Origin: Catellatospora sp. IY07-71
GTDB lineage: Bacteria > Actinomycetota > Actinomycetes > Mycobacteriales > Micromonosporaceae
Reading direction: 5' to 3'
Length of the DNA: 64,000 bases
Assembly: GCF_018326265.1 (NCBI RefSeq)
Contig: NZ_AP023360.1
Location: forward strand, 3,153,501-3,217,500
Part shown: piece by piece, positions 35,279 to 56,624 of the stretch
How positions within the stretch are numbered: the stretch's first letter is position 1
Layout of the letters: each line of letters starts with the position of its first letter
Program-made: the position numbers and the translations under genes
The notes under the pieces: generated by a model
Told to the model about the DNA's origin: nothing
What the model saw: only the letters and a program-made list of their open reading frames with translations
Databases searched by the model: none

Positions 35279-36655
35279 CTACTCCCTCGTGATCTGCTGC
35301 AACTGGAAGAGGAAGTCGCGCATCTCGTCCGAAGCCGGATGGCCGGTCTGCTCGGCCAGCGCGACAGCCTCCCGCTGGGACTCCAGCGCCTCATCGACCC
35401 GGGCCATGTGCATCAGCAGAGCGGCCAGGTTGAAACGCGCCACCGCCTCCGCTCCGCGATCCTCCACGAGGCGGAGAATCTCTGCCACCTCCCGGAAGCC
35501 GTTCTCCGCCCCCATGAGATCGCCTTTTTCGAAGCGCAATGTCGCGATGTTGCTGAGGATGACGGCTTCGGCGCCGCGGTCGCCCAGCTCGCGCAGGATT
35601 GGCAGGGCCTGCTGAAAGCTGGCCAGCGCCAGCGGGTCTCCCGCAGCGTCGAGCGCGCTGCCGATGCCCGCGAGGGTGTCTGCTTCACCGGCGCGGTCGC
35701 CGACCTCCCGCCGGATGGACAGTGCGTGCTGGTAGCAGGTCAGCGCCCGCTGCGGGTCGTTCAGCGCGTCGAAGACGGCGCCGATGTTGTGCAGGGTGAC
35801 GGCCTCGCCCGCGCGGTCGCCGACCTCCCGCCGGACGGACAGTGCCTGCTGGTAGCAGCTCAACGCCTGCTGCCAGTCGCCCAGCTCCTTGTGCGCGAGC
35901 CCGATGTTGTTCAGGACGACGGCTTCGCCTGCGCGGTCGCCGACGTCGCGCTGAATGGGCAGAGCCCGCCGGTAGTAGGTCAATGCCCGTTGCCGGTCGC
36001 CCAGCGCGTTGTGCGCGTGCCCGATGTTGTTGAGCACCCCCGCTTCGCCGGCGTGATCGCCGACCTCTCGCAAGATGGGCAGGGCCTGCTGGAAGTATTC
36101 CAGGGCCTGCTGCCGGTCACCGAGCCCGTCGTGCACGCTGCCGATGTTGTTCAGGGTGGCCGCTTCGCCCGCGCGGTTGCCGACCTCTCGCTGGATGGGC
36201 AGGGCCTGCTGGAAGTACTCCAGGGCCTGTTGCCGGTCGCCCAGCATGTAGTGCACGCTGCCGATGTTGTTCAGGGTGGCCGCTTCGCCCGCGCGGTCGC
36301 CCACCTCCCGCTGGATGGGCAGAGCCTGCTCGTAGTGGATCAGGGCCTTCCGGGGCCGCCCGGTGGAGGACAGGGCCCAGCCTAAGAAGTAGAGGGCGCT
36401 GGCGTCCGGGCCCAGGGTCAGCGTCGCGCGTGCCAAGGCCGCCATGTCGGCGAACCGTGACGTGCCCACCCATACCCGGGCTACCTCGTCTCCGACCTCA
36501 GCGGCGATGCTCTGCTCCCGGCCCGCGACCGCGAGCCGGTGCACCTCCACCCATTGTGCGACCGTCGCAGCGGACTCGGTGCGAGCCGGATGTTCCCACT
36601 CCGCAGCCATCCCCCGGGCAGCCGCTGAGCCTGAACCGTCCGTCAACTTCGGCAC
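35279..36655 (-). CDS. TPR sensor protein B of the CHAT/EACC1 system
   Basis: 458 residues, GTG start with GGGAGG immediately before it and GAGG further up. The shared N-terminal module spans about 30-95 (VEVHRLAVAGREQSIAAEV, TSRFADMAALARATLTLGPDA, LYFLGWALSSTGRPRKALIHYEQAL). Seven 40-residue TPRs follow with NNIG turns, then a capping helix region (DLMGAENGFREVAEIL) and a C-terminal helix AVALAEQTGHPA that also occurs in protein A. Several repeats are nearly identical in DNA. It is followed 2 bp later by the EACC1-like gene. Probably a recognition subunit; no ligand can be inferred. Confidence 0.85.
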   Translation of the reverse strand: MPKLTDGSGSAAARGMAAEWEHPARTESAATVAQWVEVHRLAVAGREQSIAAEVGDEVARVWVGTSRFADMAALARATLTLGPDASALYFLGWALSSTGRPRKALIHYEQALPIQREVGDRAGEAATLNNIGSVHYMLGDRQQALEYFQQALPIQREVGNRAGEAATLNNIGSVHDGLGDRQQALEYFQQALPILREVGDHAGEAGVLNNIGHAHNALGDRQRALTYYRRALPIQRDVGDRAGEAVVLNNIGLAHKELGDWQQALSCYQQALSVRREVGDRAGEAVTLHNIGAVFDALNDPQRALTCYQHALSIRREVGDRAGEADTLAGIGSALDAAGDPLALASFQQALPILRELGDRGAEAVILSNIATLRFEKGDLMGAENGFREVAEILRLVEDRGAEAVARFNLAALLMHMARVDEALESQREAVALAEQTGHPASDEMRDFLFQLQQITRE

Positions 36656-36672
36656 CCTCCCGCCTCGGCTCC

Positions 36673-36696
36673 CCGAGGCCCGGTGCCGGGCCTCGG
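36673..36696 (-). promoter_or_regulatory. Leader hairpin before TPR gene B
   Basis: CCGAGGCCCGG and its exact complement with a 2-nt loop lie 17 bp upstream of the start. The equivalent position before TPR gene A also carries a hairpin, within a wider block of upstream similarity, so the leader was duplicated with the gene. Confidence 0.55.
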
Positions 36697-36820
36697 CGTC
36701 GTATCACCGTCATCTGACGGACAGCCCGGCTCGTCCGCCGACCTGGTTCTGCGGCAGGCGGGTGGCGCGGATCCACGGTCCAGCACGGCGACACTCCCGG
36801 CACCTCGACCGTGCCGGCGC

Positions 36821-38206
36821 TCATCCCTCATCCCTCGTCATGCGCCGCAACTGGGCGAGGGCCACTCGCATGTCGAGCAGGTCGGGGTGCCCGGTCTGCT
36901 CGGCCAAGGCGATCGCCCGGCGCTGGGCCTCGACCGCCTCATCGAGTCTCGCCATGCGGATCAGCAGGATGGCAAGGTTGAACTCCGCGGAGGCCGCCGA
37001 CGCTCGATCACCGACGAGGTGGAAGATCTTCAGCACGGCGCTCAGGGCGTCCTTCGCGCGGGCGAGATTGCCGTATCCAAAGTGGATCGCACCGATGTTG
37101 TTCAGGCTGATCGCTTCCCCGGCGCGGTCGCCCACCTGCCGCTGTATCCGCAATGCCTGTTTAAAGCAGGTCAATGCCTGCTGCCGCTCGCCCAGCCTGT
37201 TGTGCACGCTGCCGATGTTGTTGAGGGTGATCGCTTCCCCGGCGCGGTCGCCGACCTCGCGCCGCATGAGCAACGCCTGCTGGTAGTGATCCAGGGCCCG
37301 CTTCTGGTCGCCTAGCTCCTCGTGCACGTATCCGATGTTGCTGACGGTCGCCGCCTCGGCGGCGCGATCGCCGACCTCCCGCTGGAGGGGCAACGCCTGC
37401 CGGTAATGGTCGAGGGCCTGCTGCCAGCCGCCGAGCCTGGCGTGCACGCCGCCGATGTTGTTGAGGGTGATCGCTTCCCCGGCGCGGTTGCCGACCTCGC
37501 GCAGGATGGGCAGTGCCTGCTGGTAGTAGCTCAGGGCCTGGTGCCGGTCGCCCAGCCCGTTGTACGCGAGTCCGACGTTGCCGAGGGTGGCCGCTTCCCG
37601 GGCGGGGTCGCCGAGCTCGCGCAGGATGGGCAGTGCCTGCTGGTAGTAGCTCAGGGCCTGCTGCGGATCGCCCAGCCCGTGGTGCACGAGTCCGATGTTG
37701 TTGAGCGCGCCCGCTATGCCGCGGCGGTCGCCGAGCTCGCGCAGGATCGCCAGCGCCTGCCGGTAGTGGGTCAGGGCCTGCTGCCGGTCGCCGAGCCCGT
37801 CGTATACGAGGCCGATGTTGTTGAGGACGGCTGCCCGGGTGCCGCGGTCTCCGTCCTTCCCGAGAAGATCCAGCGCACACTCGTAGTTGGTCAGGGCTGG
37901 CCGGGGCTGTCCGGTGGCGAACAATGCCCAGCCCAGGTAGTACAGAGTCACGGCATCCGGGCCCAGGTCCAGCGTCGCTCGGGCCAGGGCCGCCACGTCG
38001 GCGAACCGTGACGTGCCCAGCCACAGCCGAGCGAGCCGATCCCCGACGTCGCGGGCGATCGCCTGCTCCCGCCCCGCCACTGCCAACCGGTGTACCTCAG
38101 CCCAGTGTGCCACCGTAGCGGTGGACTCGATACGAGCCGGATGTTCTCCTAACTCAGCGAGCGCGCTTGCGGCCATCGGGGCTGGGTCGCCCGTCAACTG
38201 TGGCAT
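36821..38206 (-). CDS. TPR sensor protein A of the CHAT/EACC1 system
   Basis: 461 residues, ATG start with GGAAGG directly in front. The N-terminal module (HWAEVHRLAVAGREQAIARDVGDRLARLWLG, TSRFADVAALARATLDLGPDA, LYYLGWALFATGQPRPALTNYECAL) is shared with proteins B and C. Seven TPRs with NNIG turns follow, then a C-terminal segment AIALAEQTGHPDLLDMRVALAQLRRM. Adjacent repeats are so alike that stretches of about 45 bp are identical at a 120-bp offset (for example from 37498 and 37618). It is the first gene of the five-gene cluster, 165 bp from gene B, and both have similar leaders. Inferred sensor. Confidence 0.85.
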   Translation of the reverse strand: MPQLTGDPAPMAASALAELGEHPARIESTATVAHWAEVHRLAVAGREQAIARDVGDRLARLWLGTSRFADVAALARATLDLGPDAVTLYYLGWALFATGQPRPALTNYECALDLLGKDGDRGTRAAVLNNIGLVYDGLGDRQQALTHYRQALAILRELGDRRGIAGALNNIGLVHHGLGDPQQALSYYQQALPILRELGDPAREAATLGNVGLAYNGLGDRHQALSYYQQALPILREVGNRAGEAITLNNIGGVHARLGGWQQALDHYRQALPLQREVGDRAAEAATVSNIGYVHEELGDQKRALDHYQQALLMRREVGDRAGEAITLNNIGSVHNRLGERQQALTCFKQALRIQRQVGDRAGEAISLNNIGAIHFGYGNLARAKDALSAVLKIFHLVGDRASAASAEFNLAILLIRMARLDEAVEAQRRAIALAEQTGHPDLLDMRVALAQLRRMTRDEG

Positions 38207-44854: not shown

Positions 44855-45559
44855 TCAGCAGCCTTCGGGGAGCGTGAAGCGGTAGCCCCGGGCCTTCAGG
44901 ACGGGGATGACCTGGTCGACGGCGTCGACGGTCTGGCTGCGGTCGCCGCCGCCGTCGTGCATGAGCACCACCGCGCCGGGCGTGATGCCGTCCAGCAGGC
45001 GGCGGGCGAGTTCGTCGGTGCCCGGCGGCTCCCAGTCGGTGATGGCCAGCCGCCAGCCCAGCGGGCGCATGCCCAGCGACGCGGCGACCTGGGGCGACTC
45101 GCCCCACGCGCCGAAGGGCGCCCGGAAGTAGGGGATGCGCGCGTGCGGCACGGCGCGGCGGATGGCGGCGCTGGCCTGCTCCAGATCGGCCCGGATCTGC
45201 TCGGGCGTCAGGGCGCTCAGGTCGTCGTGGTGCATGCTGTGGTTGCACAGGGTGTGCCCGGCGGCGGCGATCCGGCGTACCACGTCGGGGTGCTGCTCGA
45301 CGTGGTCGCCCCAGAGGCAGAAGACCGCCTTGACGCGGTGCTCGCGCAGCACGTCGAGCAGGCGCAGGGTGTCGGCCGGGTTGGGGCCGTCGTCGAAGGT
45401 GAAGCTGACCACGTCGCCGTGGCCGCCAGCGGTGTCGACGATGTCGGCGCTGACGGCCGGCTTCGCCTGGGCGCTGCCGGCGGCGCCGAGGGCGGGACCG
45501 ACCGCGCTGAGCGCTGCGGCCAGCCGCGGGACGCGGCGGGTGAGGGCGTACGAGGACAT
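44855..45559 (-). CDS. Secreted NodB-type polysaccharide deacetylase (CE4)
   Basis: 234 residues. An N-terminal signal sequence (about 1-32) precedes a NodB domain with all five CE4 motifs: TFDDGP (motif 1, Asp56-Asp57), CNHSMHH (motif 2, metal ligands His107 and His111), RAPFGAWG (motif 3), GWRLAITDWEPPG (motif 4) and AVVLMHDGGGDRSQTV (motif 5). Members deacetylate chitin, peptidoglycan or acetylxylan. Operators of the xylan type upstream and the xylanases next door favour acetylxylan esterase activity (inference). The ATG at 45559 follows GGAAAGG; an earlier Met at 45586 adds a non-signal leader. Confidence 0.88.
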   Translation of the reverse strand: MSSYALTRRVPRLAAALSAVGPALGAAGSAQAKPAVSADIVDTAGGHGDVVSFTFDDGPNPADTLRLLDVLREHRVKAVFCLWGDHVEQHPDVVRRIAAAGHTLCNHSMHHDDLSALTPEQIRADLEQASAAIRRAVPHARIPYFRAPFGAWGESPQVAASLGMRPLGWRLAITDWEPPGTDELARRLLDGITPGAVVLMHDGGGDRSQTVDAVDQVIPVLKARGYRFTLPEGC

Positions 45560-45629
45560 GTGGTGGCCTTTCCGGACGGTGTCCATTCGTCCCGGTCATT
45601 CTTTGCGCGGCGTTTCCGCAACGTCAACG

Positions 45630-45646
45630 ACTTCCGGAAACTTTCG
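45630..45646 (-). promoter_or_regulatory. Xylan-type operator before the deacetylase
   Basis: ACTTCCGGAAACTTTCG combines a TTCCGGAA palindrome (45632-45639) with a GAAACTTTC palindrome (45637-45645), about 70 bp upstream of the deacetylase start. Confidence 0.6.
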
Positions 45647-47411: not shown

Positions 47412-49037
47412 TCAGTGTTCCAGGTAGGTGGCGTGGTCGAAGTCGGCGTACACGCCGTCGTTGCCGAGGTCCTGCACCCACAGGCCGAGGAACGCGCCGG
47501 TGAAGCCCCACGCGGCCGGCTCGCCGTCGATGATCAGCGCCGCGTGCTCGTCGGACAGGATCGTCGCGTCCAGCTCGACCGGCAGCTCCCGCCAGCCTTC
47601 GCCCAGGTCGTAGGCGAAGCGCACCACCGGCCCGTCGTACACCGCGCGCAGCCCGACCCGCCCGGCCGTGCTCGCGTCCACGGTGAGCTCCGGGTACACC
47701 GTGCGCCGGCCGCTGTCGGAGCTGAGCAGCTCCAGCACCGCCCGGCCGTCGTCGGCTCGGGTCAGGTAAAGGTAGTACCAGTTCAGGGTGTTGTAGTACG
47801 CGGTGATCCCGGCCAGGTGGCGGTGGTCGCGCGGATCGAACTCCACGGCCGTCTCCAGCGAGCACCGCTCGGCGCCTACCCGCCGCGCGACCAGGCTCGG
47901 GGTCTGCTTGCCGACCGGCGACTGCCCGCCGCGCACCCGCAGGTGCGAGGGGCGCGAGCGCAGGTCGATCCAGTCCGGTGTGGCGGGACGGCGCAGGGTG
48001 GACCAGCAGACGGACAGGTCCGGGCCGTCGAAGTGGTCGGTGGCGGGCTCGTCGGGCCACGGGTGGGCGGGCAGGTCGGGCGCCTGGTACTCGTCGGCGG
48101 GAATGCCGCCGGGGATGCTCGGCCAGCCGCCGTCGGGCCAGTCCACGCGCTGGATCGCGGTCTCCCGGCCCAGCACGCAGTTGCCACGGGGGCTGTACGG
48201 GCGGGCGACCAGGTGCGCCAGGTACCACTCGCCGCCCTGGGTCTGCACCAGGCTGCCGTGCCCGGCCTTCTGCAACCGCAGGTCGGGACGGTCCACCGAG
48301 GTCAGCAGCGGCCCGGCCGGGTCCACCTCGTACGGCCCCAGCAGGTTGCGCGACCGCGCCACCGTGACCTGGTGCTCCCAGCTGGTGCCGCCCTCGGCGG
48401 TGACCAGCCAGTACCAGCCGTCGCGCCGGTACAGGTGCGGGCCCTCGGTCAAACCCGCCGCGGTCCCCCGGAAGATGATCTGCGCGTTGCCGACGAGCTG
48501 CCGCTTCTCCCGGTCGTAGCGCTGGATCTCGATGCCGCCGAAGCGGTCCCGTCCCGGCCGCCAGTCCGCGCTCATCGACAGCAGCCAGGTGGTGCCGTCC
48601 TCGTCGTGGAACAGGGCGGCGTCGAAGCCGTGCGAGTGCAGCGGCACCGGGTCCGACCAGGGTCCGCTGATGTCCGGCGCCGTGGTGAGGAAGTTCTGGG
48701 GGTCCCAGTAGCCGCTGGCGAAGCTGGCGACGTCGCTGTAGACGAGGTGGAACAGGCCGTCGTGCCAGGTGAGGTCGGGGGCCCAGACGCCGTTGGAGTC
48801 GCCGCAGCCGCGCAGGTCGAGCAGGCGGCGTTCGGTGACGATGCCGCCGAGGGGCTGCCAGTGGACGAGGTCGCGGGAGTGGTGGACGCGTACGCCGGGG
48901 TACCACTCGAAGGTCGAGGTGGCCAGGTAGTAGTCGTCGCCGACGCGCAGGATCGAGGGGTCCGGGTGGAACCCGGGCAGGACCGGGTTGCGGATCGACC
49001 GGGCGGCCGTGGCCACGTGAGCGGTCTCGGTCGACAT
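47412..49037 (-). CDS. GH43 beta-xylosidase/alpha-arabinofuranosidase, cytoplasmic
   Basis: 541 residues with no signal peptide. The five-bladed GH43 propeller occupies 15-320: general base Asp26 in NPVLPGFHPDPSI, pKa-tuning Asp in GFDAALFHDEDG, and acid Glu in GLTEGPHLYRR. WAPDLTWHDGLFHL and GHGSLVQTQGGEWYL are family-typical. Residues 335-541 form the C-terminal beta-sandwich found in xylosidases of this family (WIDLRSRPSHLRVRGG ... AGITAYYNTLNWYYLY). It would hydrolyse imported xylo-oligosaccharides or remove arabinose; sequence alone does not decide. It is divergent from the sugar importer, with shared operators between. Confidence 0.92.
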   Translation of the reverse strand: MSTETAHVATAARSIRNPVLPGFHPDPSILRVGDDYYLATSTFEWYPGVRVHHSRDLVHWQPLGGIVTERRLLDLRGCGDSNGVWAPDLTWHDGLFHLVYSDVASFASGYWDPQNFLTTAPDISGPWSDPVPLHSHGFDAALFHDEDGTTWLLSMSADWRPGRDRFGGIEIQRYDREKRQLVGNAQIIFRGTAAGLTEGPHLYRRDGWYWLVTAEGGTSWEHQVTVARSRNLLGPYEVDPAGPLLTSVDRPDLRLQKAGHGSLVQTQGGEWYLAHLVARPYSPRGNCVLGRETAIQRVDWPDGGWPSIPGGIPADEYQAPDLPAHPWPDEPATDHFDGPDLSVCWSTLRRPATPDWIDLRSRPSHLRVRGGQSPVGKQTPSLVARRVGAERCSLETAVEFDPRDHRHLAGITAYYNTLNWYYLYLTRADDGRAVLELLSSDSGRRTVYPELTVDASTAGRVGLRAVYDGPVVRFAYDLGEGWRELPVELDATILSDEHAALIIDGEPAAWGFTGAFLGLWVQDLGNDGVYADFDHATYLEH

Positions 49038-49066
49038 GGGGGCTCCTTCTGGTCTGTTTTCCGGCG

Positions 49067-49102
49067 AAGTTCCGGAAGCCTTCGGCCGGAACTTTCAGAA
49101 AT
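49067..49102 (-). promoter_or_regulatory. Operators before GH43
   Basis: AAGTTCCGGAAGC (49067-49079, core TTCCGGAA) and CCGGAACTTTCAGAAAT (49086-49102, GAACTTTC half) lie 30-65 bp upstream of the GH43 start, overlapping the expected promoter. Confidence 0.6.
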
Positions 49103-49202
49103 CCCGCTCACCGTAACGGTTCAAGTCGAGATGCGACAGCCCCTTGACCGTGCAGTAGCCCACGTCGTAACGTGCCCGCCATCACTTGAAAATACCGGCA
49201 CC

Positions 49203-49219
49203 GTTCCGAAAGTTTCGGA
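49203..49219 (+). promoter_or_regulatory. CGAAA-G-TTTCG operator before the sugar importer
   Basis: TCCGAAA-G-TTTCGGA (49205-49219) is a perfect 7-bp inverted repeat with one central base, 72 bp before the binding-protein start. From memory, Streptomyces BxlR-type LacI regulators recognise CGAA-N-TTCG-like palindromes. Confidence 0.7.
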
Positions 49220-49290
49220 GCCGTATTTCCGCACCTCCCGCCGACCCGATCGGCATCCGAGTACCTGGTAAGTCCTCGAAGGGATGGCAC

Positions 49291-50583
49291 ATGACAGCGT
49301 TTCTCTCCCGCCGTACGCTGCTCGGCCTGGCCGGGGCCGGCGCGGGCGCGTACCTGCTGAGCGCCTGCGGCAGCGACGAGCCGGCCGACCCGAACGCGCC
49401 GCAGACGATCAACTGGTGGCACATCCAGAACACCGAGCCGATGCTGCCGGTCTGGGCGGCGATCGCCAAGGAGTACGAGTCGGCGCACACGAACGTGAAG
49501 GTCGTGATCCAGCCGCTGGAGAACGAGGCGTTCAAGGCGAAGCTGACCACGGCGACGCAGGCGGGCTCGCCGCCGGACCTGTTCCAGTCGTGGGGCGGTG
49601 GCGTGCTCAAGCAGCAGGTCGACGCGGGTCTGGTCAAGGACATCACGGCTGACGTGCAGCCGTGGATCGGTTCGCTGCTGCCGGCGTCGGTGCAGCCGTT
49701 CACGATCGACGGGAAGATCTACGGTGTTCCGTTCGACGTGGGCATGGTCGGGTTCTGGTACAACAAGGACCTGTTCGCCAAGGCCGGGATCACCGCGCCG
49801 CCCACCACCTGGGCTGAGCTGCTGACCACGGTAAGCAAGATCAAGGCCGCGGGCATCGTGCCGATCGCGCTGGCCGGCAAGGACAAGTGGCCGGGCCACT
49901 TCTACTGGGCCTACCTCGCCATGCGCATCGGTGGCCTCGGCGCGCTGCAGCAGGCCGCGGAGACCAAGAACTTCGACACCCCGGACTTCGTCGCGGCCGG
50001 TCAGCGGCTCAAGGAGCTGGTGGATCTGCAGCCGTTCCAGAAGGGCTTCCTCGGCGCGGAGTACGGCTCGCCGGACGGGCAGGCCGCGACCATGGGCAAC
50101 GGCGGCGCGGCGATGGAGCTGATGGGCCAGTGGGCCCCGTCGGTCCAGGCCTCCTCCTCCACCAGCAAGAAGGGCCTGGGCGACAAGCTCGCGTTCTTCC
50201 CGTTCCCGTCGGTCGACGGCGGCAAGGGCACGGTGGCGGAGGCGTTCGGCGGCGGCAACGGGTTCGTGGTGGGCAAGAACGCGCCCGCCGCGACGACGGA
50301 CTTCCTGAAGACGCTGCTGGACGTGGCCAACCAGCGCAAGTCGGCGGAGACGGGTGCGGTGCTGCCGACGGTGAAGGACGCCGCGGACGCGATCAAGGAC
50401 CCGAACAGCAAGACGGTGGCGTCGAGCCTGGCCGCGGCGACGGGCTTCCAGCTGTACCTGGACCAGGCGTACCCGCCGGCGGTGGGTCAGCAGGTCAACG
50501 ACAGCGTGGCCGAGCTGATCGCCGGGTCGAAGAAGGCCGAGGACATCGTCAAGGACATCACCACGGTGGCGAAGAGCCAGTAG
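49291..50583 (+). CDS. Sugar-binding lipoprotein of the xylo-oligosaccharide importer
   Basis: 430 residues. The N-terminus has a Tat-like SRRTLLGLAG and lipobox LSAC with Cys26 as lipidation site. The mature protein is a family-1 solute-binding protein (INWWHIQNTEPMLPVWAAIAKEYE, KAKLTTATQAGSPPDLFQSWGGG, YGVPFDVGMVGFWYNKDLFAKAG, GNGGAAMELMGQWAP), the type used for oligosaccharides. Neighbouring xylanases and GH43 point to xylobiose or xylotriose as ligand (inference). AAGGGATG precedes the ATG. It is followed by two permease genes after 58 bp. It resembles BxlE of Streptomyces in context. Confidence 0.9.
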   Translation: MTAFLSRRTLLGLAGAGAGAYLLSACGSDEPADPNAPQTINWWHIQNTEPMLPVWAAIAKEYESAHTNVKVVIQPLENEAFKAKLTTATQAGSPPDLFQSWGGGVLKQQVDAGLVKDITADVQPWIGSLLPASVQPFTIDGKIYGVPFDVGMVGFWYNKDLFAKAGITAPPTTWAELLTTVSKIKAAGIVPIALAGKDKWPGHFYWAYLAMRIGGLGALQQAAETKNFDTPDFVAAGQRLKELVDLQPFQKGFLGAEYGSPDGQAATMGNGGAAMELMGQWAPSVQASSSTSKKGLGDKLAFFPFPSVDGGKGTVAEAFGGGNGFVVGKNAPAATTDFLKTLLDVANQRKSAETGAVLPTVKDAADAIKDPNSKTVASSLAAATGFQLYLDQAYPPAVGQQVNDSVAELIAGSKKAEDIVKDITTVAKSQ

Positions 50584-50641
50584 CCATGCGTCCTGACCAA
50601 GAACCCGCAGCCGTGGACGAGCACCGAGTGGAGCAGGCCCG

Positions 50642-51643
50642 ATGAGCCCATCGACGACGACCGACCTGCGACGCGACGACGCGGCGACCGAGCTCTTGGC
50701 GGCAGCCCCGGCGGCCACGCACCCGCGTGGCCGCCGGGCCCGGCCCCGCTCCGGCCGCCTGGGCACCATCGTGGTCTTCCTGGCCCCGGCGCTGGTGCTG
50801 TTCCTGCTGCTGGTGATCGCGCCGATCCTGGTCGCGGGCTACGCCAGCACGTTCAAGTGGAACGGCTTCGGCCTGCCCGAGAACTACGTGGGGCTGGACA
50901 ACTTCACCCGCGCCTTCCAGGACCCGACCTTCCTCGGCGACCTGTGGCGGTCCCTCGTGCTCATCACCCTGTCGCTGGTGATCCAGCTGCCGGTGTCGCT
51001 GGGCCTGGCGATGCTGCTCAACCAGCCGCTCAAGGGCCGCAGCGTGTACCGGCTGATCTTCTTCGCCCCGTACGTGCTCTCCGAGGTCACCACCGCGGTC
51101 CTGTTCACCCTGGTGCTCTCGCCCAACCGGGGCCTGGGCGACACGCTGTCGAAGTGGCTGGGCGCCGACGCCGGAGCCGTCTTCGCCGATCCGGACACCG
51201 TTCTGATCGCCCTGTTCCTGGTGATCTCGTGGAAGTACTTCGGCTTCCACATGATCCTCTACCTGGCGGGGCGGCAGGGCATTCCGCGTGAGCTGACCGA
51301 GGCGGCCACGACCGACGGGGCGAGTGCGTGGCAGGTGTTCCGGCACGTCACGCTGCCGCTGCTCGGGCCCACGATCCGGATCAGCGTGTTCCTGTCGGTC
51401 ATCGGCAGCATCCAGCTGTTCGACATGGTCTGGGTGCTCACCGGCGGCGGCCCGATCCACGCCTCGGAGACCATGGCCGTGACCATGTACCAGTTCGGCT
51501 TCCGCCGCTTCGAGGTCGGCTACGCCAGCGCCATCAGCATCATCATGTTCCTGCTCAGCCTGATCTTCGCGCTGTTCTACCAGCGATACGTGCTGCGCCG
51601 CGACACCGAGGGCGCGATCACCACGAGGGGAGTCCAGCGATGA
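50642..51643 (+). CDS. Sugar ABC permease, MalF type
   Basis: 333 residues. After a 40-residue polar N-terminus there are six helices. The cytoplasmic EAA loop ELTEAATTDGASAWQVFRHVTLPLLGPT (EAA---G---------LPLL), which docks the ATPase, is intact. The N-terminal start FLAPALVLFLLLVIAPILV and VGLDNFTRAFQDP are typical of MalF-like permeases. Its stop overlaps the next permease start by 4 bp (ATGA), so the two are translationally coupled and would form the heterodimeric channel. Confidence 0.92.
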   Translation: MSPSTTTDLRRDDAATELLAAAPAATHPRGRRARPRSGRLGTIVVFLAPALVLFLLLVIAPILVAGYASTFKWNGFGLPENYVGLDNFTRAFQDPTFLGDLWRSLVLITLSLVIQLPVSLGLAMLLNQPLKGRSVYRLIFFAPYVLSEVTTAVLFTLVLSPNRGLGDTLSKWLGADAGAVFADPDTVLIALFLVISWKYFGFHMILYLAGRQGIPRELTEAATTDGASAWQVFRHVTLPLLGPTIRISVFLSVIGSIQLFDMVWVLTGGGPIHASETMAVTMYQFGFRRFEVGYASAISIIMFLLSLIFALFYQRYVLRRDTEGAITTRGVQR

Positions 51644-52482
51644 CCGTCAACCGCGAGAACCCGGTGGTGCGGGTGCGCCGTACCGTGCTGCACCTGGTGT
51701 CGATCGCGATCGGCGCGCTGATCGTGGTGCCCGTCGGGTTCGGGGTGCTGGGCGGGTTCAAGGACAACGGCCAGCTGTCCACCAACCCGCTCGGCTGGCC
51801 CGACCCGTGGGTGCCGGAGAACTACACCGGCATCGTCACCTCGGAGGTGTTCTGGCGGCAGCTCGGCAACAGCACCCTGATCGCGCTGGCGACGGTGCTG
51901 GTGGTGGTCGGGGCGTCGGCGATGGCGTCGTTCATCTTCGCGCGGTTCGCGTTCCGGGGGCGGGAGGCGCTGTTCACGCTGTTCGCGGTCGGGCTGATGT
52001 TCCCGTTCGCGGTGGCGATCCTGCCGCTGTTCATCCTGCTGCGCGGCATGGGCCTGCTGGACAACCCGCTCGGCGTCATCCTGCCGCAGGCCGCGTTCGG
52101 GCTGCCCACGACGATCATCATCCTGCGGCAGTTCTTCCGGACCATCCCGGCCGAGGTCGAGGAGGCGGCGACACTCGACGGGTGCACGCCGTTCGGGTTC
52201 TTCTGGCGCATCCTGCTGCCCATGGCCAAGCCCGCGCTGGCGACCGTGTCGGTGCTGGCGATCGTGGCCAGCTGGAACAACTTCATGCTCCCGCTGGTCG
52301 TGTTCACCGACCAGAGCTGGTGGACCCTGCCCGTCGGGGTCCAGGCCTTCCAGGGCCAGTACGCCGACGACACCGCCCGCGTACTGGCCTACGTCGTACT
52401 GTCCATGATCCCCGCGCTCGGCTTCTACGCCATAGCCGAACGGCAGCTCGTCGGCGGTCTCGCCGGCAGCGTCAAAGGCTGA
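51640..52482 (+). CDS. Sugar ABC permease, MalG type
   Basis: 280 residues with six helices and an intact EAA loop EVEEAATLDGCTPFGFFWRILLPMAKP. VPVGFGVLGGFKDNGQLSTNPLGWP and the ending AERQLVGGLAGSVKG (R/Q-x-x-V-x-G-x-x-x-G-x-V-K-G) are characteristic of MalG-type permeases. It is the last gene of the transporter operon. No ATPase gene follows; in actinomycetes such importers generally share the multi-sugar ATPase MsiK encoded elsewhere (known for Streptomyces). A terminator lies 26 bp after the stop. Confidence 0.93.
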   Translation: MTVNRENPVVRVRRTVLHLVSIAIGALIVVPVGFGVLGGFKDNGQLSTNPLGWPDPWVPENYTGIVTSEVFWRQLGNSTLIALATVLVVVGASAMASFIFARFAFRGREALFTLFAVGLMFPFAVAILPLFILLRGMGLLDNPLGVILPQAAFGLPTTIIILRQFFRTIPAEVEEAATLDGCTPFGFFWRILLPMAKPALATVSVLAIVASWNNFMLPLVVFTDQSWWTLPVGVQAFQGQYADDTARVLAYVVLSMIPALGFYAIAERQLVGGLAGSVKG

Positions 52483-52507
52483 ACTCCCGCCGGGGGGCGG
52501 GGGAGAA

Positions 52508-52544
52508 CCGGCACGGCAGCCCGCCGAACGGGCTGCTGTGCCGG
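52508..52544 (+). terminator. Terminator of the sugar importer operon
   Basis: A 16-bp stem with one G-U pair and a 5-nt loop (arms 52508-52523 and 52529-52544), between the permease stop and the first LacI gene. Confidence 0.75.
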
Positions 52545-52558
52545 GGATCCGCCCACCG

Positions 52559-52564
52559 TAGGCT
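52559..52564 (+). promoter_or_regulatory. -10 box for leaderless LacI gene
   Basis: TAGGCT followed by exactly 6 nt and the ATG at 52571; no ribosome site. Confidence 0.6.
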
Positions 52565-52570
52565 CGGGCG

Positions 52571-53613
52571 ATGACGAAAGGGCGAACCGTGGCCTCCGAG
52601 GACAACCGGAAAGTGACCATCGCGGCGATCGCGCGCCTGGCCGGGGTGTCGGTGCCCACCGTCTCGCGCGTCATCAACGGCCGCTCCGACGTGTCGCCGC
52701 AGACCCGCGAACGCGTCGAGGAGCTGCTCACCCGGCACGGCTACCGCCGCCGCCCGCCGAGCATGCGGGCCAGCTCCGGCCTGCTCGACCTCGTCTTCAA
52801 CGACCTGGACAGCCCGTGGGCCGTCGAGATCATCCGGGGCGTCGAGGACGTCGCGCACGCGGCCGGCATCGGCACCGTGGTCTCGGCCATCCACCGCCGC
52901 ACCTCGGCGGCCAAGCAGTGGCTGGACAACATGCGCAGCCGCTCTACCGAGGGCGTCATCTTCGTGACGTCCACCCTGGAGCCGCCGCTGCAGGCCGAGC
53001 TGCGCCGCCTCAACATCCCCGTCGTCATCGTGGACCCCGCCGGGGTGCCGCCGCAGGAGGCGCCCACCATCGGGGCGACAAACTGGGCGGGCAGCCTGCG
53101 GGCCACCGAGTACCTGATCGGCCTGGGTCACCGGCGGATCGGGTTCATCGCCGGGCCGCCGCAGCTGATGTGCAGCCGGGCCCGCGTCGACGGGTATCGG
53201 GCCGCGCTGGAGGCGGCCGGGATCGCCGTCGACGACAAGCTGATCTACCCGGGCAACTTCTACCACGAGGCCGGGTTCGCGGGGGCACCCAGCTGCTCCA
53301 GCTGCCCGAGCCGCCCACCGCGATCTTCGCGTCCAGTGATCAGATGGCGCTGGGCGTCTACGAGGCGGTGCGCCAGCGCGGCCTGCGCGTGCCGGACGAC
53401 GTCAGCGTGATGGGGTTCGACGACCTGCCCGAGGTGCGCTGGTGCTCGCCGCCGCTGACCACGGTCCGGCAGCCGCTGGCCGAGATGGGGCTGCTCGCCG
53501 CGCGTACCGTGCTGCGGCTGGCCCAGGGCGAGAGGATCGAGAGCCCGCGCGTCGAGCTGGCCACCGAGCTCATCGTCCGCGACAGCGCCGCGTCACCGCG
53601 GCGCGAGCCGTAA
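52571..53613 (+). pseudogene. LacI-family regulator 1, frameshifted
   Basis: The first frame gives a normal LacI protein: helix-turn-helix VTIAAIARLAGVSVPTVSRVINGRSDVS, hinge, then the ligand domain up to about residue 240. Near 53281-53286 the frame is lost. The downstream part (GGTQLLQLPEPPTAIFASSDQMALG to VRDSAASPRREP) continues in the next frame to 53613. Comparison with the intact paralogue shows one base missing where GCGGGCGGCACC is expected but GCGGGGGCACC is found. If real, the protein is truncated with a wrong tail and may bind DNA without sensing sugar; it could also be a sequencing error in a G-run. Repaired length would be about 347 residues. Confidence 0.8.
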
Positions 53614-53628
53614 CCCCTACCGGTAGGC

Positions 53629-53652
53629 GTACGAAACTTTCATCACTAGGCT
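53629..53652 (+). promoter_or_regulatory. Operator and -10 box of LacI gene 2
   Basis: GTACGAAACTTTCAT contains GAAA-C-TTTC (53633-53641), and TAGGCT (53647-53652) follows at once. The operator thus sits in the promoter spacer, consistent with autoregulation. Confidence 0.55.
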
Positions 53653-54740: not shown

Positions 54741-54784
54741 TTTTCCGGAAGTTCTTGACTCCCACTCCGGTTCAGACCCAGGAT
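54741..54784 (+). promoter_or_regulatory. Promoter with TTCCGGAA operator, GH10-CBM2 gene
   Basis: TTTTCCGGAAGTT (core 54743-54750) abuts a -35 TTGACT (54755-54760); a -10-like CAGGAT lies at 54779-54784. A repressor at the operator would block polymerase. The leader is about 130 nt. Confidence 0.6.
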
Positions 54785-54923
54785 GGTGATCGCTTCCATC
54801 GATGTGTCGACGGCCGCCGGAGCGCCCGCCCGATGCGCGAGCCACCCTGCCCGGACGGCTGCGCAGCCATGCCCTCGGCGGGCGGTCCGGCGGCTCACCG
54901 CCACCCTCCGTAAAGGAGAGACC

Positions 54924-56624
54924 GTGACGCCTCCACGCGTCCGTATCCGTGATACCCGGCGCCGCCTGGCGTCGCTCGCCGCGCTGACGCTGGTGTCCGC
55001 GCTCGCCGTCCCGGCGCTGTCGGCCGCGCCCGCGGCCGCCGCCACCCCGCTGCGCACCCTGGCCGCAGCCAAGGGCAAGTTCATCGGCTTCGCCGCCGCC
55101 ACCAACCCGCTGGCCAACGAGGCCGCCTACCGGACCATCGCGCAGACCGAGTTCAACCAGGTCACCGCCGAGAACGCGATGAAGTGGGAGTCGACCGAGC
55201 CGTCGGACAACAGCTGGACCTTCAGCGGCGCCGACCAGATCGTCGACTTCGCGGTCGCGAACAGCCAGCAGGTGCACGGCCACACGCTGATCTGGCACCA
55301 GCAGACGCCCGGCTGGGTGCAGGGCCTGGGCGCCACGGCGATGCGCACCGCGATCCAGGACCACATCGCGACCCTGGTCGGCCGCTACGCCGACAACGCG
55401 GCGCTCGTGTCGTGGGACGTGGTCAACGAGGTGTTCAACGAGGACGGCACCTTCCGGACCAGTTTCTGGTACAACACTCTCGGCCAGAGCTACATCGCCG
55501 ACGCGTTCCGCTGGGCCCGCGCCGCCGACCCGAACGCGAAGCTCTGCATCAACGACTACAACGTCGAGGGCGTCAACGCGAAGAGCACCGCGATGTACAA
55601 CCTGGTCCAGTCGCTGCGCGCGCAGAACGTGCCGGTCGACTGCGTCGGCTTCCAGTCCCACCTGGCCACGCAGTACGGCTTCCCGAGCGACATGCGGCAG
55701 AACCTGGAGCGCTTCGCGGCGCTGGGGGTCGAGGTCCGCATCACCGAGCTGGACATCCGGATCCAGACGCCGCGCACCTCGGCCAAGGACGCCACCCAGG
55801 CGCAGTACTACACCAACGCGGTGAACGCCTGCCTCGCCGTCCCGGCGTGCTCGGGCATCACCATCTGGGGCTTCACCGACAAGTACTCGTGGGTGCCGGA
55901 CACCTTCCCCAGCGAGGGCGCCGCGCTCATCTACGACGAGAACTACCAGGCCAAGCCCGCGTACACGGCGGTGAACACCGCGTTCGGCGGCACGCCCACG
56001 ACCGACACCCAGGCCCCGACGACGCCGGGCACACCGGTCGCCTCCGGGATCACGTCCAGCAGCGTGAACCTGTCCTGGACCGCCTCGACCGACAACGTCG
56101 GCGTCACCGGATACGACATCCTGCGCGCCCCGGGCACCTCGGGCGGCACGTTCACGCAGGTCGGCACGTCGACGACGGCCTCGTTCAGCAACACCGGGCT
56201 GAGCGCGAACACGGCATACCGCTACCAGGTCCGGGCGCGTGACGCCGCGGGCAACGTGTCGGCGGTGTCCAGCGCGGTCACCGTCACCACCACGACCGGC
56301 GGCGGCACCGGGGGCGGCTGCGGGGCCACCGCGACCGTGCAGACGCAGTGGCAGACCGGCTACGTGATCGAGCCGGTGCGGGTCACCAACAGCGGCACCT
56401 CGGCGATCAGCGGCTGGACCGTCACCTTCACCCTCCCGGCCGGGCACACTGTCACCGGCAGCTGGAACGCGACGCTGACTACCAGCGGCCAGACCGTGAC
56501 CGCCCGCAACGCCGCGTACAACGGCAGCCTGGGCGCGGGCGCGAGCACCACGTTCGGCTTCCAGGTCAGCCGGCCCAACGGCGACACCGCCACGGCGAGC
56601 GGCTTCACCTGCGCCACGCCGTGA
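54924..56624 (+). CDS. Secreted GH10 xylanase with Fn3 and CBM2
   Basis: 566 residues. Signal peptide about 1-40 (SAAPAAAAT). The GH10 barrel (41-355) has acid/base Glu169 in SWDVVNEVFNED and nucleophile Glu275 in VRITELDIRI, plus NAMKWESTEP and HTLIWHQQTPGW. A short Thr/Pro linker leads to a fibronectin-III domain (about 370-450, TPGTPVASGITSSSVNLSWTAS). A Gly-rich link then joins a CBM2 (about 462-566, CGATATVQTQWQTGYVIEPVRV ... GSWNATLTTSG) for binding cellulose or xylan. GTG start with AAAGGAGAG upstream; the earlier in-frame Met at 54783 has no signal peptide. It complements the single-domain GH10 enzyme at 46 kb. Confidence 0.95.
   Translation: MTPPRVRIRDTRRRLASLAALTLVSALAVPALSAAPAAAATPLRTLAAAKGKFIGFAAATNPLANEAAYRTIAQTEFNQVTAENAMKWESTEPSDNSWTFSGADQIVDFAVANSQQVHGHTLIWHQQTPGWVQGLGATAMRTAIQDHIATLVGRYADNAALVSWDVVNEVFNEDGTFRTSFWYNTLGQSYIADAFRWARAADPNAKLCINDYNVEGVNAKSTAMYNLVQSLRAQNVPVDCVGFQSHLATQYGFPSDMRQNLERFAALGVEVRITELDIRIQTPRTSAKDATQAQYYTNAVNACLAVPACSGITIWGFTDKYSWVPDTFPSEGAALIYDENYQAKPAYTAVNTAFGGTPTTDTQAPTTPGTPVASGITSSSVNLSWTASTDNVGVTGYDILRAPGTSGGTFTQVGTSTTASFSNTGLSANTAYRYQVRARDAAGNVSAVSSAVTVTTTTGGGTGGGCGATATVQTQWQTGYVIEPVRVTNSGTSAISGWTVTFTLPAGHTVTGSWNATLTTSGQTVTARNAAYNGSLGAGASTTFGFQVSRPNGDTATASGFTCATP

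Follow-up and report, generated by a model that had tools for sequence, protein, structure and literature searches.

The window, by which we mean the whole 64,000-nucleotide stretch of the chromosome of the soil actinomycete Catellatospora sp. IY07-71 analysed here, carries a xylan operon whose order is GH43 xylosidase, ABC importer, gene A, gene B and GH10 xylanase (Table 1). The two repressor genes, A and B, adjoin the xylosidase gene and an ABC importer of predicted xylo-oligosaccharide specificity, for which the start of the solute-binding protein was set at the ATG at 49291 (the longest open reading frame begins at 49186). The helix-turn-helix (HTH) domain of the LacI family (PF00356) was recognized in A (57.7 bits), in B (47.9 bits) and in a third repressor, C (57.2 bits), an intact protein of 345 aa encoded in a duplicated operon elsewhere in the same chromosome. 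The ligand domain Peripla_BP_3 (PF13377) is complete in B (135 bits over profile positions 2-166) and in C (142 bits over 1-167), whereas in A only its beginning is matched (31 bits, profile positions 2-60 of 167). Judged from these domain matches, gene A is a member of the LacI/GalR family by descent, and its predicted present product is a broken member of it.

Table 1 Features of the xylan operon around gene A (positions within the window).
Feature	Position	Strand	Domains
GH43 beta-xylosidase-type gene, divergent from the importer operon	47412..49037	-	PF04616, PF17851
Predicted operator, exact BxlR match CGAAAGTTTCG, in the divergent promoter region	49207..49217	+	
Solute-binding protein, ABC sugar importer	49291..50583	+	PF01547
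ABC importer permease 1	50642..51643	+	PF00528
ABC importer permease 2	51640..52482	+	PF00528
Gene A, LacI/BxlR-type, truncated open reading frame, 279 aa	52571..53410	+	
G-run with a one-base deletion relative to 38 other copies	53281..53285	+	
Gene A 3' part in the shifted frame, coding conservation retained (13/16 changes at one codon position)	53286..53613	+	
BxlR-operator-like site CGAAACTTTCA with 1 mismatch, in the A-B spacer	53632..53642	+	
Gene B, LacI/BxlR-type, intact tandem paralogue, 339 aa	53707 (GTG)..54726	+	
GH10 xylanase with fn3 and CBM2	54783..56624	+	PF00331, PF00553

Gene A is interrupted by a single-base deletion. One base is missing from its G-run, which takes translation out of the native frame after codon 238, so that the open reading frame from the ATG comprises 238 native and 41 out-of-frame codons, while the remainder of the gene lies in the shifted frame and ends at a stop codon at 53611-53613. 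At 53279-53289 gene A reads GCGGGGGCACC where its paralogue B reads GCGGGCGGCACC, confirming the missing base that a sequence-only reading of this DNA had placed near 53281-53286. When the orthologue from the closest relative was compared with the window by tblastn, its residues 1-238 aligned in frame 1 (99%) and its residues 227-343 in frame 3. In the nucleotide comparison with the nearest relative, 14 of 15 substitutions before the gap and 13 of 16 after it share one codon position, the phase being shifted by a single base across the gap, and this bias on both sides of the gap argues that the break is not a product of chance. The ORF map, tblastn and substitution phase together bear out the description in the sequence-only reading of a frameshifted LacI gene at 52571-53613 followed by an intact tandem paralogue, and the codon-position bias agrees with its remark that both parts are otherwise well conserved.

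The same reading had called the paralogue a near-duplicate; B is indeed intact and adjoining, yet it shares only 84% DNA identity with A, and the closer paralogue is C (89%), whose HTH stretch (VTIAAIARLAGV...RRRP) is identical to that of A, B differing at a few places. Nearly the whole xylan operon is present twice in the chromosome (closed, 8.6 Mb): positions 47423-53600 of the window match a second place (L038 309-6514) over 6.2 kb at 88%, similarity is found again across the GH10 gene, and the second operon contains a GH43 gene, an importer, the single repressor C and a GH10-like gene. A fourth LacI paralogue in the genome (L039) is distant (67%). Of 11 genomes of the genus that were examined, the present one included, 8 have the A-B tandem (G000-G004, G006, G007 and G010, where G000 is this genome), and their B genes group in a single, fully supported clade. 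The nearest relative among the genomes compared, Catellatospora bangladeshensis (G002), has the A-B pair at 95% DNA identity for A and 97.5% for B. Elsewhere in the window, two minus-strand open reading frames within 35279-38206 (458 and 461 aa) adjoin each other, have similar starts and look like another tandem duplicate.

Within single genomes, the longest exact runs shared by the two xylan operons measure 357 bases in this genome, 370 in G003 and 1,041 in G008 (operon pairs compared: 47423-53600 with L038 309-6514 in this genome, L042 with L050, and L057 with L058). No exact runs of at least 100 bases were present in three between-species operon comparisons. These sequence comparisons suggest ongoing gene conversion between the two xylan operons as the simplest reason for their concerted evolution, and gene conversion may also lie behind several draft contigs that end just upstream of the repressor genes.

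Two reports (PMC4743123, PMC12772271) describe BxlR of Streptomyces thermoviolaceus as a xylobiose-responsive repressor of the LacI family that binds CGAAACTTTCG, and tie its homologues SLI7232 (S. lividans) and SACTE_0535 (Streptomyces sp. SirexAA-E) to xylan genes. Exact matches to this operator (CGAAASTTTCG) occur at six sites in the genome (genome coordinates 582104, 3202707, 3617822, 5299288, 6678756 and 7276856), whereas the reversed control pattern occurs at no site. All six adjoin xylan-type glycoside hydrolase genes (GH43 at two sites, GH3 at one and GH11 at three); at the second of the GH43-side sites the GH43 gene is followed by the LacI gene L039, and at the GH3-side site the GH3 gene is divergent from an ABC importer permease. 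The GAAACTTTC core of the site in the A-B spacer is kept in all eight tandem genomes. Because operator matches lie beside xylan genes and a further site lies in the A-B spacer, A, B and C are most likely repressors of the BxlR type whose predicted operators overlap, an assignment made from sequence and gene context, and the six exact sites are predicted to make up a compact BxlR regulon in Catellatospora. Beside one of the operator sites, a single open reading frame (L190 1098-3116) joins GH11 xylanase and polysaccharide deacetylase domains. Another one-mismatch operator-like site, GGAAACTTTCG, lies in the window at 45636-45646, just upstream of a minus-strand open reading frame at 44855-45586 (243 aa).

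The break in gene A is private to this sequence. Across the site, 38 of 39 copies from 19 genomes (this one included) run in a single frame, and gene A here is the sole exception; two of the 38 unbroken copies are cut at contig ends with the site still covered, and the count leaves out L039 (67%), hits shorter than 400 bases and further listed matches. A check of the same gene in close relatives, proposed by the sequence-only reading, thus found all 38 other copies unbroken and the deletion in none of them.

Its second proposal, a count of synonymous and non-synonymous differences after the break, was carried out by comparing this genome with G002 and assigning changes to branches with seven outgroup copies. 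On the branch leading to this genome, 14 synonymous and 0 non-synonymous codon changes precede the break and 9 and 0 follow it; one non-synonymous change on each side is unpolarised, and the remaining non-synonymous changes lie on the G002 branch, including three of the four after the break. Between the two species pN/pS rises from 0.027 before the break to 0.088 after it. The part after the break contains 231 non-synonymous and 87 synonymous sites, for which neutrality predicts about 24 non-synonymous changes per 9 synonymous ones. Relaxed selection of the kind that marks a pseudogene was therefore not seen after the break, with one change unpolarised, and the 9 synonymous against 0 non-synonymous changes indicate that gene A was under selection until essentially now. 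Since none of the roughly 24 expected non-synonymous changes is present, gene A can have been broken for at most about one-eighth of the branch (about one-fifth if the unpolarised change is counted). This substitution pattern fits a null mutation of very recent date as well as a base-calling error, and it argues against a truncated regulator that has been maintained. We caution that a very young pseudogene is indistinguishable from an intact gene by this selection test.

The quality of the assembly was examined by aligning 400 kb of this genome to a 366-kb contig of G002, which gave 221 kb of alignment at 94.5%, of which 185 kb lie in called genes. Seven of the 105 clusters of frame-changing indels were flagged, and only gene A shows a strong codon-position bias both before and after the gap; the remaining six show weak phase counts or are long clusters with several gaps. 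This phase survey replaced an initial tblastn survey, in which 12 and 11 genes were incompletely covered in the two directions and which was set aside because several of these cases were likely over-extended 5' ends or contig ends. No homopolymer-contraction bias was found in the 221 kb compared with G002: one-nucleotide gaps are balanced (82 short in this genome and 95 in G002), and the two genomes have coding G/C runs of six at similar frequency. Among the matches listed in a literature search on Catellatospora complete genomes, none dealt with this strain or with the way it was sequenced. Because gene A is the only strong coding frameshift among the 105 clusters, an error rate sufficient to produce one here is not demonstrated, and the lack of contraction bias means that a lone error in a G-run is neither proven nor excluded.

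G-runs are a usual spot for base-calling errors, and such an error is the reading that we favour slightly, at roughly even chances with a real null: the assembly would carry a consensus error in a GC-rich G-run, and gene A would be intact in the living strain, where it would act as an ordinary repressor that binds CGAAASTTTCG and lets go on xylobiose-like sugars. The privacy of the break, the absence of non-synonymous changes after it, the codon bias of both halves and the position in a G-run all speak for an error, but the assembly has no general error signature, and the same pattern is expected of a real mutation that is very recent. The simple alternative named in the sequence-only reading, a sequencing error in a G-run, is accordingly supported as far as it is testable, by the private break and the 9 synonymous against 0 non-synonymous changes, the contraction-bias test being negative. 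Somewhat short of an even chance is a real frameshift that abolished function very recently and left a young pseudogene, whose loss would be tolerated thanks to intact B and C with their nearly identical DNA-binding domains. Redundancy makes such a loss plausible (C has 89% DNA identity and an identical HTH, B is intact and the whole operon is duplicated), the assembly is free of homopolymer-error bias, and one coding frameshift per roughly 185 kb of coding sequence is, in our judgement, a plausible natural load; however, no second inactivating change is seen in gene A, and with 0 of 9 polarised changes after the break non-synonymous, the event would have to fall within the short age limit given above. 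If the deletion is real, gene A would be a fresh null allele, and loss of function with B and C covering is expected.

Neither of these readings gives the truncated protein a role of its own. The sequence-only reading had proposed that the fragment keeps its HTH and might act as an uninducible or dimer-poisoning regulator. The 279-aa product does have an intact HTH and an intact N-terminal portion of the core, but the fragment ends inside the C-terminal ligand subdomain, with about one-third of the protein missing. Folding and dimer contacts of LacI proteins depend on the C-terminal subdomain and the crossover strands, and classical LacI genetics indicates that dominant-negative action requires a DNA-binding domain that is dead and a dimerisation core that is intact. 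A dominant-negative action is unlikely because the fragment has the opposite arrangement, and with its HTH kept and its core cut, it is also unlikely to work as a dimer poison or as a stable, uninducible repressor. The proposed role thus fell, although the retained HTH stood: the core, which in LacI structures carries the dimer interface, is cut, the break is absent from the 38 other copies, selection still seems to act on the 3' part in its original frame and none is apparent on the truncated form, so that we hold a maintained truncated regulator to be very improbable. The dominant-negative fragment was rejected on the cut core and the lack of conservation. We would give equally little credence to a real recent frameshift whose HTH-bearing fragment alters control of the xylan regulon, with gene conversion between the operons able to restore or spread the allele. 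The least credible reading is recoding, in which ribosomal -1 frameshifting or transcriptional slippage on the G-run would yield some full-length protein; a run of five G permits re-pairing in the P site, but the A-site codon re-pairs poorly after a -1 shift, five G is short for polymerase slippage, and the arrangement occurs in no relative and hence gives no sign of selection for recoding. Programmed frameshifting and transcriptional slippage were rejected for want of conservation. We infer that the deletion is not an evolved feature.

The deletion is real as sequence and ordinary as biology, the base being missing either from the strain or from the assembly. The frameshift itself matters little beyond being a cue for annotators: gene A is most likely either a fresh null allele or a normal repressor gene whose consensus sequence contains a slip, and there is no hint of a new function for this copy. 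Of more use are the side results, namely a predicted six-site BxlR-type regulon, three near-identical repressors and the concerted evolution of the duplicated operons. The break resembles the young frameshifted paralogues and homopolymer consensus errors of finished bacterial genomes in being a single-base change in a G-run with conserved halves and unbroken copies in every relative examined, and it has nothing distinctive in comparison with them. Like BxlR, A, B and C belong to the LacI family and occur beside an ABC importer and a xylosidase gene, and the operator CGAAACTTTCG is matched exactly at 49207. Unlike BxlR, they comprise two tandem genes and a third in a duplicated operon, one of them is frameshifted, and the xylosidase is of family GH43.
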